This document shows, in pieces, positions 4,787 through 27,042 of a DNA stretch of 64,000 bases. Under the pieces are notes generated by a model that worked only from the letters and a program-made list of their open reading frames with translations, was not told the DNA's origin and ran no database searches. How positions within the stretch are numbered: the stretch's first letter is position 1; the number at the start of each line of letters is the position of its first letter. The DNA comes from Nitrosarchaeum sp. (lineage in GTDB: Archaea; Thermoproteota; Nitrososphaeria; Nitrososphaerales; Nitrosopumilaceae): the NCBI RefSeq assembly GCF_035968265.1, contig NZ_JAVYIM010000002.1, positions 62,001 through 126,000 on the forward strand, read 5' to 3'. The translations under genes and the position numbers were made by a program.

Positions 4787-5842
4787 ATGGACAATACTGT
4801 GATTGATTCCTCACTAAGAACAGTAGAGTGGAAAGATAACAAAGTAGTGATGATTGACCAGACCAAACTGCCAAACCATCTGGTCTTTGTAACATTTGAT
4901 GATTATAACCAAGTAGCAGATGCAATTAGGACTCTAGTTGTACGAGGCGCACCAGCTATTGGCGTGTCTGGCGCTTTTGGATTAGCATTAGCTGGACTGC
5001 AAAGTAATGCAACTACAAAAGACCAACTTATCTCTGATCTAGAAAAGGCAAGAAAAATCCTATATGAGACAAGACCAACTGCTGTAAATCTAAAATGGGG
5101 ACTAGATAAAATTATGAAGATTGCAAATTCTGGAGATGCAGTTGAGCAAATTAAACAATCAATAATAAATGAAGCAAAAAAAATGGCAGATGAAGATATT
5201 CAAATAAACAAAACCATGGGAAAATACGGTTCTGTCTTATTTGACAACAATGATACTATTATGACTCATTGCAATGCAGGAGCTCTAGCTACTGTAGCTT
5301 ATGGAACAGCACTAGGTGTAATTAGAGCTACAAGAGAGAGTGGAAAAAATATCAAAGTAATAGCTACTGAGACAAGACCAATACAACAAGGCTCCAGACT
5401 AACGGCATTTGAGCTAAAACACGATGGATTTGATGTAAGCCTAATTCCAGACACTGCGGTAGGATATTCAATGGCAAATGGACTAGTAAACAAAGTAGTT
5501 GTTGGTGCAGACAGAATTGTAAGAACTGGTCATGTCTTTAACAAAATTGGAACATATCAAGTAGCAACCATGGCAAAGCAACATGGAATCCCATTTTATG
5601 TTGCAGCACCATTATCCACTTTTGATATGACTAGTGATGCCAAAGATGTAATAATTGAAATGCGAAAGGGAACCGAAGTTACCGGAATTGGCGATAAAAA
5701 AACAGCACCTGATGATATCAACGTGATAAATCCAGCATTTGATATGACTCCGCCTGAGTTAATTTCTGGAATAATTACTGAAAAAGGCGTGGCAAAACCA
5801 CCATACGAAGAATCTATCAAAAAATTATTTCAAGCTAATTAA
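4787..5842 (+). CDS. mtnA: MtnA-like isomerase (methylthioribose-1-phosphate isomerase / eIF2B-like family)
   Basis: A 351-residue protein of the eIF2B-related sugar-phosphate isomerase family. Signature segments are RGAPAIGVSGAFG near residue 55, the catalytic cysteine in THCNAGALAT near residue 160, ETRPIQQGSRLTAFEL, and the catalytic aspartate in VVGADRI. These match MtnA, which isomerises 5-methylthioribose-1-phosphate in methionine salvage. Some archaeal relatives act instead on ribose-1,5-bisphosphate, and I cannot exclude that activity. The ATG at 4787 is preferred over the in-frame TTG at 4775. The next gene starts 38 bp downstream on the same strand. Confidence 0.85.
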   Translation: MDNTVIDSSLRTVEWKDNKVVMIDQTKLPNHLVFVTFDDYNQVADAIRTLVVRGAPAIGVSGAFGLALAGLQSNATTKDQLISDLEKARKILYETRPTAVNLKWGLDKIMKIANSGDAVEQIKQSIINEAKKMADEDIQINKTMGKYGSVLFDNNDTIMTHCNAGALATVAYGTALGVIRATRESGKNIKVIATETRPIQQGSRLTAFELKHDGFDVSLIPDTAVGYSMANGLVNKVVVGADRIVRTGHVFNKIGTYQVATMAKQHGIPFYVAAPLSTFDMTSDAKDVIIEMRKGTEVTGIGDKKTAPDDINVINPAFDMTPPELISGIITEKGVAKPPYEESIKKLFQAN

Positions 5843-5880
5843 TAGAAAGTTTTTATTGATTTTATATCGCATTAAATAGC

Positions 5881-6519
5881 ATGAGCACTGTAACTGCACA
5901 AGCCGTAAAGGAATCTCTAAAACAATGCATGGATCCTGAAGTTCCACTAAATATTGTAGAGATGGGATTAATCTATGGAATTGATGTTGTTGAAAATAAT
6001 AATGTAAATATCAAAATGACAATGACTACCCAAGGCTGTCCACTACACGAGACTCTAGTTCAAGATGTGACAAGATACGCAAAAAAAGTTCCGGGAGTAA
6101 ACAACGTCAAAGTCGATATTGTTTGGGAACCAAAATGGACAATGGATAGCATGACTGAAGAAGGAAAAGCAAAAATCAAAAACATGACCAATACAATGAC
6201 TACTCCAGCTCCAATCAATTATGAAGTTGCATTACCTCAAGGAGTTGGTAAACTAGTGCAACAAGAAGACGGTTCAATGGTACTAGCTAACGAACATGAT
6301 CAGGGGTTCATGGTAAATCAGGCCATTGTTGACTTTTGGAAGTCATGCAATGGACAACGCAAAGTTACTGAACTAGTAGAAATATTTGCACAGCAGACAG
6401 GACTGCAAAGAAATCAAGTAGAAAAAGAAGTTATGCAGTTACTTCAGCAATTACGTGAAGGTGGTTTAATTGCAATTCAAAATCAACCAGATTCACCTAA
6501 CGTTCAATTCAAAAAATAG
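5881..6519 (+). CDS. DUF59/MIP18 (SufT-like) domain fused to a PqqD-like domain
   Basis: 212 residues in two parts. Residues 1-105 are a MIP18/PaaD/SufT (DUF59) domain with the DPEVPLNIVEMGLIYG motif and the conserved cysteine C53 in TQGCPLHE; such domains help deliver iron-sulfur clusters. After a Thr/Pro linker, residues 125-205 resemble the PqqD peptide-chaperone fold (HDQGFMVNQAIVDFW followed by a helical segment ending LREGGLI). PqqD-like domains usually hold a peptide for a radical SAM enzyme. The fusion suggests a maturation factor that presents a peptide segment or client to an Fe-S delivery step (inference). Read-through from mtnA is likely. Confidence 0.8.
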   Translation: MSTVTAQAVKESLKQCMDPEVPLNIVEMGLIYGIDVVENNNVNIKMTMTTQGCPLHETLVQDVTRYAKKVPGVNNVKVDIVWEPKWTMDSMTEEGKAKIKNMTNTMTTPAPINYEVALPQGVGKLVQQEDGSMVLANEHDQGFMVNQAIVDFWKSCNGQRKVTELVEIFAQQTGLQRNQVEKEVMQLLQQLREGGLIAIQNQPDSPNVQFKK

Positions 6520-22752: not shown

Positions 22753-22956
22753 ATGGAATGGATTTTAGGTTTTTCTGCAATTATTCTTTTAATAATAGGT
22801 CTGATTGGTCAGGCATTTGAATTAAGAAAAATTAGAATTGATTCTACTCAAGATCAACTAGGCTCAGCTAATATTTTTCTTAACAAGAAAAATTTCAAGT
22901 GGTATGCAATTATTATTGTAGGCATGATTATTTGGTATGTAGCTGAGCGTATGTGA
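22753..22956 (+). CDS. small membrane protein (67 aa)
   Basis: 67 residues with two membrane helices (ILGFSAIILLIIGLIGQAF and WYAIIIVGMIIWYVAE) joined by a polar loop of about 25 residues. No family is recognised. It is divergent from ilvE and directly upstream of the candidate structured RNA promoter. Confidence 0.55.
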   Translation: MEWILGFSAIILLIIGLIGQAFELRKIRIDSTQDQLGSANIFLNKKNFKWYAIIIVGMIIWYVAERM

Positions 22957-22976
22957 AGATTCTATATAGATCACAT

Positions 22977-22985
22977 CTATATACT
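22977..22985 (+). promoter_or_regulatory. TATA-like box upstream of candidate ncRNA
   Basis: CTATATACT is centred about 26 nt before 23007, the point at which the paired region of the candidate RNA begins. A near copy (TCTATATAGA) lies 19 nt further upstream. Confidence 0.45.
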
Positions 22986-23007: not shown

Positions 23008-23093
23008 GCGTGTTTAGGGTAACGCCGGACTAAATCTAGATAAGGTCCAAGAACAAACCCTTATTGGCGGTAAAGGTGAAAACCCTTAACGCC
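23008..23093 (+). ncRNA. candidate structured small RNA (about 86 nt)
   Basis: No protein frame fits here. A closing helix pairs 23010-23020 (GTGTTTAGGGT) with 23082-23092 (ACCCTTAACGC), with one T-T mismatch and one G-U pair. Inside it, CGCC 23023-23026 pairs with GGCG 23066-23069, and GGAC 23027-23030 pairs with GTCC 23045-23048. AAACCCTTA occurs twice (23055-23063, 23080-23088), so AGGGT could pair with either copy, giving two alternative folds. A promoter-like box is at the right distance. It does not match SRP, RNase P, 5S or tRNA. The type is unknown. Confidence 0.55.
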
Positions 23094-23105: not shown

Positions 23106-24521
23106 TTAAATAAAATTAATTTTTGAAATTTCTTGGTGAATCACGTTTATAGCTTTTCTGATACTGTCTTTAGAATCTTCAATAACAATAATTATTCTTG
23201 AAGTCTCTTCTTGTGCATCCATATTCAAAATGTTTAGTCCCACCTCACCAATCTTTGCACTAGTTCTTGATGCTACCTGCTGTACTCTCCACATCTCATC
23301 TCCAATTAGTGTGATTACTCCTCGGTTGTATGTAATTGATGCAAGTGGATCAAATCCAAGAAAATATTTTTCATTTCTTTTAACGTAATCTGCATCTAAA
23401 AATAATATTCTTGAAAATTCAACACCGTCTTTAGTAAATGGTGATAAAATTATGTATTCGCTGTACCGTTTGTCTTTTTCTAATGATACTAGTAATTTTT
23501 GGGCTGCATTTGTTTCAATTTTAAAAATTGCACAATTTTCTTTTCCGGTTACAATCTTAATTGGATGACCATTTTTGCTATTTGGTACTCGTTTTATAGT
23601 AGTAGTTTTTGACGGTTCTTTCATATTTGTAACAATAATTGGCATATCCACTCCATTCTCTACAATCTCTTTGATTGCAATAGGATCCAAAATTTTCATT
23701 CCAAACATTCCTGCTAGTCTTGCCTCATTGTATGATAATTCATCTACTTCAGTCAATCCATTTTCAACAATTTTTGGATCTGCAGACACTACAGAACTAT
23801 CTTTTTCAAAATCTATTCTGGTTTCATATTTTTTATGAAATAGTATTCCCAGATCAGCTGCTGTTCTATCGGAACCTCCTCGTTCATATGTAGTAATTAC
23901 TCCCTCTGGAGTTTTTCCTATGAATCCTCCGATTGCAACTACCTCATTTTCATCTACCAATTTAGCTGTTTTTCCGAGATTTTCTCTTGATTTAGATGCA
24001 AGAAAATTAGTTGATTCTATATTATGATCTGTAATTATTGGCCAGTCATCATAACTTACTGCATTTGATTTTATCCCATTACTTTTAAGAATGTAATTCA
24101 TTACATGTGAAATCAGAATCTCTCCTGAAAACGCCAATGATCGTGAACGTACCTCATTTACAAATTCTTTTTTTAGTAATGCTTCATCTAATGCCATTTC
24201 AGCTTTTTTTAGGAACAAATCTATGCTTTTTTGACAATCTTCTTTATTTTCAGAATTTACAAATTTTATGATCTTTTCGTAACATGATTTTATAGCATCC
24301 AAATTTGCTTTTTCACCGTTTTCGACATTTCTTCCCTGCTCTAAGATTACATCTGTAAGCGAGCATTTTTTTCCATTTTGAATTGTTAGCGGTGCTGAAA
24401 ATACTGCAATAATTTTGGAATCTTTCTTTAAATCATTAATTCTATCTATAACTAATGGTATTGAAATACCATCAATACCAATGGCACTACCACCAAATTT
24501 GGCTACGACTAACTTTATCAT
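23106..24521 (-). CDS. lysC: aspartate kinase
   Basis: 471 residues. The N-terminal kinase part has VVAKFGGSAI, the GFIGKTPEGVITTYERGGSDRT segment in two pieces (residues near 200-222) and the ADLG loop. The C-terminal part has two ACT-like domains (about 320-471), with SRTSAKIGEVGLNILNM and the final ISIIRKA-type helix. It phosphorylates aspartate as the first step to lysine, threonine and methionine, and the ACT domains suggest feedback control by amino acids. It is followed downstream (lower coordinates) by the structured-RNA candidate on the opposite strand. Confidence 0.9.
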   Translation of the reverse strand: MIKLVVAKFGGSAIGIDGISIPLVIDRINDLKKDSKIIAVFSAPLTIQNGKKCSLTDVILEQGRNVENGEKANLDAIKSCYEKIIKFVNSENKEDCQKSIDLFLKKAEMALDEALLKKEFVNEVRSRSLAFSGEILISHVMNYILKSNGIKSNAVSYDDWPIITDHNIESTNFLASKSRENLGKTAKLVDENEVVAIGGFIGKTPEGVITTYERGGSDRTAADLGILFHKKYETRIDFEKDSSVVSADPKIVENGLTEVDELSYNEARLAGMFGMKILDPIAIKEIVENGVDMPIIVTNMKEPSKTTTIKRVPNSKNGHPIKIVTGKENCAIFKIETNAAQKLLVSLEKDKRYSEYIILSPFTKDGVEFSRILFLDADYVKRNEKYFLGFDPLASITYNRGVITLIGDEMWRVQQVASRTSAKIGEVGLNILNMDAQEETSRIIIVIEDSKDSIRKAINVIHQEISKINFI

Positions 24522-25665: not shown

Positions 25666-25740
25666 GGGCTCATGGTCCAGATCGGTTATGACGTCGCCCT
25701 TACACGGCGAAAATCCAGGGTTCAAATCCCTGTGGGCCCA
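25666..25740 (+). tRNA. tRNA-Val (anticodon UAC), integration site
   Basis: Acceptor GGGCTCA/TGGGCCC with an A discriminator, anticodon stem TCGCC/GGCGA around loop CTTACAC (anticodon TAC), T-stem CAGGG/CCCTG with a normal loop TTCAAAT. The tRNA is intact. Its last 12 bases and one following base recur at 32841-32853 as the far end of an integrated element, and the integrase gene lies 9 bp downstream. Confidence 0.96.
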
Positions 25741-25749: not shown

Positions 25750-27042
25750 TTAGTTCAAGCCCTGCCTATTTTTGATAACAATTTTACCATTTGGCAATGT
25801 TCCAAGAAACTGCCAACCTTCTATCACTAATTTTTCAAACTCTTCTGGTGTCACAACTCGCTGACTTGTGATCTCTTCGTCTTGTTTTGTGTTGGTCTCA
25901 TAGTCCAAAAACTCTTGACATTTTTTAAAAGACTCGTACATCTCATCAGTCAGTGCTTTTGGGAGTATGCTCTTGTTTGTAGTGTATTTTGCCTCCATGG
26001 AACCAGTGTGTCCCATAAAGAAAACACGAAAGTCATGAGCTATTTTTCCTCTGGATTCTGCAATCAGCAACTGTGTGTCAAAGAACGCTCTTAGCACATA
26101 CGGTCTCCACTTGAATCGTGGTCTCATTGCATCTCGTACGTCTCTTTCAATTATTGCAGTACAAAGAAACTTTTTCTCTTCGTTTTTTCCGCGGAATCTT
26201 TTGTACTTTGAAAAAGGTACTATCACAGGGCTCTCAGGACTGAGAACTTCACCGTCAATCATTCTTTGATTGAGGTATGCAAGTATTTTTTCTGCTCCAG
26301 TTTCTGTAATGAAACTAAAGTACTTGTGTCCTGCCTTTGAGAGTGTTCTTCTTACTACAACTCTTGCAGGTGTTTTTGTAAACCTTGCAATGCCGTGTAT
26401 CACTTCAAGTTCTGGCAGATCCTGTATCATCAGCCCGTCTGTTGCATTGTGATTGCCCAGTACTTGCGGTCGCAGTCCAGCTTTTCCCATCAGTGCCATT
26501 ACTGCACCCGATCTTAGATTTGCTCTGTTGAACAGTTCTGTCAGCTCTGATGCCTCTGGAACTCGCTCATCTACAAGCGATGGAGTTGCATCAACATTTG
26601 CAATTCGTATTCTTCTCTTTACCTCAATGTCAAAGTGATGTAACCATGACTTGACTGATGTAACTATAGTCTTGATGTACTGAGGTGCATATCTTTTTCT
26701 CTCAAGCGTTGTGATGTTATCTTCTAGAAGATCTGCTACTGCTCTTGGGTCTTTGAGTCCTAACTCGATTAACTCCTTTGGAGTTATTTTGTTGTTCTCG
26801 CAGAATTTTCCGAGTTTTCGCAGTCTTACCTCTGCTGTTACGATACTGCTTCTTGCTAGGTTGTCATACCAGCGTCGTATGTCTTGGTTTGAAAGAAGGC
26901 TGTCTTTTTTTGTGATTCTTTTTTGTTTTGCAGTTGTTATTTGGCTTTGTTCTTGCGTCAATTTTTTTCCCACATCAGACTGCACATTTGTGCAGACCTC
27001 ATCAGTAATTGTAAGTGGATTTATCGTATTTACTGTTTTCAT
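25750..27042 (-). CDS. tyrosine recombinase / archaeal integrase
   Basis: 430 residues. An N-terminal core-binding part (about 50-150, RRWYDNLARSSIVTAEVRL) precedes the catalytic domain. Likely catalytic residues are R191 (KAGLRPQVLG), R318 (YVLRAFFDTQL), H345 (FMGHTG) and Y353 (AKYTTNK). This pattern is that of archaeal element integrases, in which the R-box histidine is replaced. It should catalyse insertion and excision at tRNA-Val. The gene is unbroken, which differs from SSV-type integrases that are split on integration. Its ATG overlaps the stop codon of the AbrB-like gene (TAATG), so translation is probably coupled. Confidence 0.93.
   Translation of the reverse strand: MKTVNTINPLTITDEVCTNVQSDVGKKLTQEQSQITTAKQKRITKKDSLLSNQDIRRWYDNLARSSIVTAEVRLRKLGKFCENNKITPKELIELGLKDPRAVADLLEDNITTLERKRYAPQYIKTIVTSVKSWLHHFDIEVKRRIRIANVDATPSLVDERVPEASELTELFNRANLRSGAVMALMGKAGLRPQVLGNHNATDGLMIQDLPELEVIHGIARFTKTPARVVVRRTLSKAGHKYFSFITETGAEKILAYLNQRMIDGEVLSPESPVIVPFSKYKRFRGKNEEKKFLCTAIIERDVRDAMRPRFKWRPYVLRAFFDTQLLIAESRGKIAHDFRVFFMGHTGSMEAKYTTNKSILPKALTDEMYESFKKCQEFLDYETNTKQDEEITSQRVVTPEEFEKLVIEGWQFLGTLPNGKIVIKNRQGLN

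Follow-up and report, generated by a model that had tools for sequence, protein, structure and literature searches.

The RNA gene and its fold

This study concerns a window of 64,000 nucleotides (nt) from the genome of a Nitrosarchaeum sp., a member of the Nitrosopumilaceae (contig NZ_JAVYIM010000002.1, positions 62,001 to 126,000 of the forward strand), and within it a short stretch on the plus strand at positions 23008-23093. The stretch lies between the gene for a predicted membrane protein of 67 amino acids (aa; 22753-22956, +) and an aspartokinase gene on the opposite strand (23106-24521, -). It contains a conserved gene for a non-coding RNA of approximately 86 nt, the 5′ end of which was deduced from the promoter spacing and the onset of conservation, and the coordinates proposed in a first-pass annotation of the window proved to be those of a real gene. 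That the locus is a non-coding RNA gene outside the known families is close to certain. According to the reading preferred here, its product is a stand-alone structured RNA that is regulated and probably forms dimers. From the comparison of sequences we assign to this reading a probability of about 0.55, a figure which refers to its main line and not to all steps jointly.

The earlier statement that the RNA belongs to no known archaeal family was borne out by a search with the covariance models of Rfam 15, which at gathering score found only five tRNAs in the whole window. ARAGORN likewise detected only tRNAs, located elsewhere in the window. When the locus was scanned against Rfam with permissive settings, only chance-level matches came up, the best ones reaching 14.9 and 15.2 bits as compared to gathering scores of 53 and 45. 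A small protein gene was considered and rejected, as a stop codon interrupts the first 90 nt of frame 0 in 137, of frame 1 in 109 and of frame 2 in 136 of the 137 sequences. A phage origin was also dismissed since a phage collection gave no match.

Folding of the single sequence was only weakly above chance (z = -1.8; 13 of 200 shuffled sequences folded equally well). Since the folding energy alone is too weak, the claim of a structured RNA is carried by conservation. The covariation analysis suggested together with the first annotation was run on family-wide alignments and revealed compensatory changes in three helices, termed Pk, P2 and P3, in agreement with the structured RNA proposed there. 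Four alignments were used: A1 with 24 relatives, A3 with 137 distinct sequences aligned by plain MAFFT without regard to structure, and A2 and A4 (both for the full nested structure), which lean towards the model because they were fitted to it. In A1, 89.5% of the helix cells were paired and two-sided changes occurred in 13 pairs compared to 5.1 in shuffled alignments. In A3, 98.5% of the cells of P1, Pk and P2 were paired, while versions of the helices slid along the alignment reached 24-48%, and two-sided changes were found in 64 cells (15.6 after shuffling). The corresponding numbers of cells were 208 (58.5) for A2 and 125 (39.9) for A4. In none of the four alignments did any of 500 shuffles reach the observed two-sided pairs or cells. 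The sequences of A3, like the loci and upstream regions discussed below, were gathered by a pattern fixing parts of the 5′ end, and the invariance of this end, P1 included, is therefore partly due to selection; the pattern is carried by 97 of 98 covariance-model matches above 35 bits.

Pk pairs AGGGU at 23016-23020 with ACCCU at 23057-23061. It occurs in the versions UGGGU/ACCCA, AGGGU/ACCCU and UAGGU/ACCUA; in A3, its pair 10-62 is UA in 94 and AU in 17 sequences, its pair 11-61 GC in 132 and AU in five, and the outermost pair is missing in 24 of the 137. P2, formed by GGACU (23027-23031) and GGUCC (23044-23048), exists in at least five versions (GGACU/GGUCC, GGGCU/GGCCC, GAGCU/GGCUC, GAACU/GGUUC and GGAUU/GAUCC). 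It contains 140 G-U cells but only one A-C cell in A3, from which it follows that the RNA is read on the plus strand. P3 is a 3′ hairpin at 23066-23093 with the loop GAAA (23078-23081), and showed two-sided changes in all 13 pairs in both A2 and A4. On the basis of these comparisons, there is hardly any doubt that the RNA adopts the fold composed of Pk, P2 and P3.

The 5′ strand of Pk is located in the loop of a further predicted helix, P1, which would be formed by GCGU (23008-23011) and ACGC (23022-23025) and which the model makes quite probable. P1 and Pk together would constitute, with the same good probability, a classical pseudoknot whose junction is a single base and whose long loop is the A-rich single strand AAGAACAA (23049-23056) linking P2 and Pk; this crossing strand is near-invariant in A3. 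H-type pseudoknots in which a hairpin loop pairs downstream and an A-rich strand crosses are known from the preQ1-II and SAM-II riboswitches, in preQ1-II with an inserted hairpin. The RNA resembles these aptamers in the downstream pairing of the loop, the A-rich crossing strand and, as regards preQ1-II, the inserted hairpin, but differs from them in that no gene of the same direction follows it in the window and no Rfam match exists.

The RNA is widespread in the Nitrosopumilaceae. With a query of 156 bases, clear homologues (E value 4.5e-11 or better) were detected in 29 of 61 genomes, its own included; 37 of the 61 belong to the own family, and all 29 lie within this group. R1, a covariance model derived from 24 of the 29 homologues, matched 192 of 250 Nitrosopumilaceae genomes, belonging to 17 of 22 genera, and 120 of the 131 good genomes of the family (at least 90% complete, at most 5% contaminated). 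The matched set comprises genomes which we take to be those of N. maritimus (G118), Cenarchaeum symbiosum (G018), Nitrosopelagicus brevis (G035) and N. zosterae (G206). When R1 was run under strict filters on 400 genomes from across the order, it yielded 180 matches, all listed as Nitrosopumilaceae, and no distant homologue outside the family; a broader model (R2) with laxer filters likewise gave no match in a set of 37 genomes that comprised 24 of other families and 13 R1-negative ones from the own family. Judged by these searches, the best explanation is that the RNA is specific to the Nitrosopumilaceae. Next to the aspartokinase genes of RNA-less genomes the search for diverged copies found nothing (best 10.4 bits, E value 0.5). 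Within the own genus, the genome G010 (91% complete) had no match to the RNA; it may be affected by an assembly gap since the aspartokinase match is missing too. Dropped before the counts were two degenerate matches (L109 and L142; 15.5 and 20.6 bits), secondary opposite-strand or weak matches in L071, L083, L085 and L168, and a decayed copy (L119, 39.3 bits) not recognized by the 5′ pattern.

No description of this Nitrosopumilaceae RNA was found in the papers searched. Prior notice is possible, given that PMC3043068 refers, without naming it, to a conserved noncoding RNA that is 93% identical in N. limnia and N. maritimus and that may be the one described here. Two noncoding RNA genes are reported for N. 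zosterae, likewise without names in the passages seen (PMC13248708). A marine archaeal non-coding RNA that also lacks a known family is Tan1 of Thalassoarchaea, recovered by metatranscriptomics; Tan1 differs from our RNA by its origin from marine group II Euryarchaeota and its greater length of 229 nt (PMC5069720).

Promoter element and loop hexamer

The first-pass annotation had noticed a promoter-like box at the right distance, and a TATA-like box is indeed present. It has the sequence TCTATATA (TCTAAATA in most relatives), occupies positions 22976-22983 (+) and has its first T at 22978, 30 nt before the start of the RNA. Among 161 distinct upstream regions, the first T lies at -30 from GCGTG in 111 and between -28 and -31 in 155. 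Just upstream of the TATA box, at 22958-22973 (+), there is a conserved promoter element with the consensus TGATCTATATAGATCA, a palindrome of 16 nt. It is exact in 41 of the 161 upstream regions and has one mismatch in 51, that is, 92 are within one mismatch; the right part, CTATATAGATCA, is far better conserved than the left TGAT. The perfect 14-nt core GATCTATATAGATC was found in 42 of 121 genomes, at a single place per genome; 30 of these 42 places were examined as loci, and in all 30 the distance to the RNA downstream is no more than 60 nt. No enrichment pointing to a regulon was seen in the own genome, where the 12-mer with one mismatch gave nine matches versus 12 for the reversed control. 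From its sequence and distribution, the element looks like the site of a putative regulator with at most a few further targets, and a regulator dedicated to the RNA gene is suggested tentatively. Among the closest known systems is sRNA154 of Methanosarcina mazei (PMC3177094), a regulator-controlled archaeal small RNA (sRNA), to which a symmetric operator in the promoter would link the present RNA if the palindrome acts as one. Compared by description, the promoter element of sRNA154 has a different sequence.

The loop of P2 contains at 23035-23040 (+) the self-complementary hexamer UCUAGA. In 159 distinct loci (spanning -40 to +90), the hexamer was TCTAGA 150 times, TCATGA eight times and TCGCGA once. 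It is thus self-complementary in 159 of 159 loci, with three different centres in which both central bases always change together. The search kept the outer letters fixed and left the centre free, and every locus passed; approximately 40-50 genomes matched by R1 are left out of these counts. On a FastTree phylogeny of the aspartokinases (108 rows, the hexamer state being available for 107), six changes are needed, and well supported branches force five changes between TCTAGA and the rest. If a change of the central dinucleotide were unconstrained, three of 15 outcomes would be self-complementary, so that by rough arithmetic five to six such outcomes in a row have a probability of about 3e-4 to 6e-5. 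Since no hairpin can close on a loop of two bases, pairing of the hexamer between two molecules is the simplest reading. A homodimer held together by kissing P2 loops is accordingly proposed from the loop sequences, its odds being about even. A decayed copy of the gene in another genome, the excluded locus L119 (G124:C6, approximately 2036-2124), has a broken P1 yet retains the hexamer TCTAGA, as seen by eye, and the upstream near-palindrome.

A self-complementary stretch of six nt in a hairpin loop is also the feature of the palindromic kissing-loop dimers formed by the HIV-1 dimerization initiation site (DIS) and the oskar 3′ untranslated region (reviewed in PMC7357161). In contrast to these, the loop of the Nitrosopumilaceae RNA comprises approximately 12 nt, its hexamer is richer in A and U, its flanks are variable and its dimer is a prediction. 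Conserved purines flanking the hexamer, as in the HIV-1 DIS, were not found in 137 sequences. The RNA can furthermore be likened to GOLLD, ROOL and OLE, non-coding RNAs that are reportedly homo-oligomeric (PMC12286853); these are large and bacterial, while the RNA described here is archaeal, has approximately 86 nt and is predicted to dimerize.

Genomic surroundings

The aspartokinase gene is located downstream of the RNA on the opposite strand in 109 of 112 loci (113 were examined and L142 was dropped), the exceptions being L091, L092 and L097. Upstream, most loci with enough flank contain the gene for the 67-aa membrane protein on the same strand, followed further out by a branched-chain aminotransferase-like gene (Aminotran_4). 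The 67-aa protein, whose gene is a conserved neighbour of the RNA in most loci, has no Pfam match. In two RNA-less genomes (G027 and G072), the 67-aa gene is located approximately 17 and 23 nt from the aspartokinase gene, and in G023, G021, G272 and three outgroup families (G037, G038 and G043) the aminotransferase gene adjoins the aspartokinase gene. Because the flanking genes adjoin directly, the site is regarded as empty in the RNA-less lineages, which makes these lineages natural controls. The RNA of L091 and L097 is flanked by a gene resembling, by eye, a pyridoxamine oxidase gene and, right behind it, by a 174-aa open reading frame (ORF) on the strand of the RNA, and the RNA together with its TATA box can therefore occur at another place. 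The adjoining of the flanking genes without the RNA and the other surroundings in L091, L092 and L097 speak for a gene of its own and not an element of a neighbour. The copies in these three loci, which belong to genus g19, are variants found at a different locus, and the loop of their 3′ hairpin is long and T-rich.

The G-U and A-C cells of P3 differ with the neighbourhood. Where the aspartokinase gene abuts, P3 has 42 G-U and 50 A-C cells, and where that gene is distant or absent, 48 G-U and four A-C cells, the grouping into near and far having been made by hand. As an A-C on this strand is a G-U on the other one, P3 may at the same time provide the aspartokinase transcript with a 3′ hairpin, and from the sequence it is possible that two converging transcripts share this hairpin.

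Elsewhere in the window, a tRNA-Val gene (TAC; 25666-25740, +) lies directly beside a 430-aa ORF (25750-27042, -) that looks integrase-like by eye, and the place is a possible integration site. Relatives of this ORF were found near the RNA in L163, L166 and L168. In L083 (G032), where the RNA abuts the aspartokinase gene, two ORFs at 5084-6056, approximately 2 kb from the RNA, resemble by eye a transposase of the IS630 type.

Proposed mode of action and competing explanations

The following scheme is proposed for the RNA. Transcription would proceed rightward from about 23008 under the control of its own TATA promoter, and the near-palindrome just upstream of the TATA box would bind a regulator that mainly serves this gene. 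The transcript would fold into the pseudoknot, in which the loop of P1 pairs downstream through Pk and the A-rich strand crosses back, with P2 inserted, while P3 would protect or define the 3′ end. Two molecules would then join by the hexamers of their P2 loops, and the homodimer would act in trans, presumably by binding a protein or a ligand rather than by antisense pairing. Antisense action is considered less likely because the strongly conserved stretches, except for the A-rich strand, already take part in the structure or the dimer loop; a search of the own genome for the complement of the 5′ 19 nt, with up to three mismatches, found only the gene itself. Action in trans as such is likely. 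A more far-reaching form of the scheme, in which the RNA is an obligate homodimer of two pseudoknotted protomers that doubles the invariant core for one protein or ligand within a private circuit of regulator and RNA, is conceivable and viewed with considerable doubt.

Several observations weigh against the preferred reading. P1 (GCGU/ACGC) is paired in 137 of 137 rows of A3, invariant and without covariation; because of this invariance it is deduced from geometry. As an isolated simple duplex, (UCUAGA)2 is weak (-5.2 kcal/mol), and the bases next to the hexamer vary, the 5′ one being A, U, C or G and the 3′ one U in 120 of 137 sequences. The upstream palindrome is imperfect in approximately three quarters of the upstream regions (51 of 161 with one mismatch, 69 with at least two), including that of the window, where the right part at 22962-22973 is kept and the full palindrome is not. 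Finally, the competing outer helix described below is paired to an extent that leaves an alternative fold possible, though without covariation.

This outer helix was the basis of the earlier suggestion that the RNA is a switch with two exchangeable pairing partners. The motif AAACCCTTA does occur exactly twice, at 23055-23063 and, within P3, at 23080-23088, so that both copies are potential partners of AGGGT at 23016-23020. The closing helix that had been noted, with five plus five pairs around a mismatch (11 positions, 10 pairs), is also part of the minimum-energy fold of 23008-23093, and this fold takes the outer partner at -24.2 kcal/mol versus -21.4 kcal/mol for the conserved fold without P1. 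Over the 137 sequences of A3, 90.2% of the cells of the outer helix are paired and slid versions do not exceed 58.8%. Of the two partners, however, only the inner one (23057-23061) covaries with AGGGU. The outer helix showed two-sided changes in one pair and four cells, at shuffled means of 1.8 and 3.5, and its 3′ strand (23082-23086) sits in the 3′ strand of P3 and is thus claimed by a separate hairpin that covaries at every pair. In the 137 minimum-energy folds, GGGU was bound to the inner partner in 86, to the 3′ strand in only 19 and to others in 12, and was unpaired in 20. We read the retained pairing of the outer helix as a result of its invariant 5′ strand and the constraint on P3, with many G-U pairs helping. 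The exact doubling of AAACCCTTA is a local coincidence, given that most relatives differ in the second copy. The idea of exchangeable pairing was hence abandoned; a two-state switch in which AGGGU alternates between both partners is very unlikely, although a transient alternative fold may exist.

Apart from a switch, it was considered whether the hexamer and the upstream element are recognized as DNA by dimeric proteins, either one or two, the RNA itself being monomeric. Both elements are symmetric in the DNA, TCTAGA taken alone is an ordinary palindrome, and the changes of the hexamer are few. But the position of the hexamer coincides precisely with the loop of a hairpin that covaries, and every observed change alters both central bases and preserves self-complementarity, so that this explanation is rather unlikely. 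Unlikely, too, is a cis-acting element that binds a ligand or protein, be it an aptamer or a 3′ processing element of the 67-aa gene or of the opposing aspartokinase gene. The position of the RNA directly behind the former gene and, in most loci, abutting the stop codon of the latter would suit such an element, as would the pairing of P3 on both strands where the aspartokinase gene abuts and not where it is distant. It is opposed by the conserved promoter element and TATA box located between the 67-aa gene and the RNA, by the indication of P2 for the plus strand, by the absence of both neighbours in L091 and L097 and in L092 with its shorter flank, and by the lack of a co-directional downstream gene in the window. 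Such a gene, as expected for a riboswitch, was seen only in L091 and L097 (the 174-aa ORF), the oppositely oriented aspartokinase gene being the rule. Guide RNAs for modification are common among archaeal small RNAs, and length and hairpins of the RNA are compatible with a guide of the C/D or H/ACA type unrecognized by Rfam. Against this stand the missing Rfam match at gathering score (matches named as snoRNAs reached 14.8 and 15.2 bits as compared to 39 and 45), the absence, by eye, of C, D and terminal ACA boxes at the expected places, and the above-mentioned lack of a second complement to the 5′ 19 nt in the genome. A guide RNA is the most improbable of these explanations.

The preferred reading of a regulated, probably dimeric RNA would have consequences for a group of archaea in which little seems to be known about regulation at the RNA level. 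The RNA is short and almost ubiquitous within the family, and precise, testable predictions follow from the helices, the hexamer and the promoter element. It would be a rare case of a small non-coding RNA whose self-pairing can be read from loop bases changing together, and the upstream element provides a handle on a putative regulator with perhaps a single dedicated site. The Nitrosopumilaceae belong to the main ammonia oxidizers of the ocean. If the scheme is true, some of the most abundant archaea of the ocean would possess a private circuit of regulator and RNA, and the promoter of the RNA gene would be the strongest or only site of this regulator in the genome.
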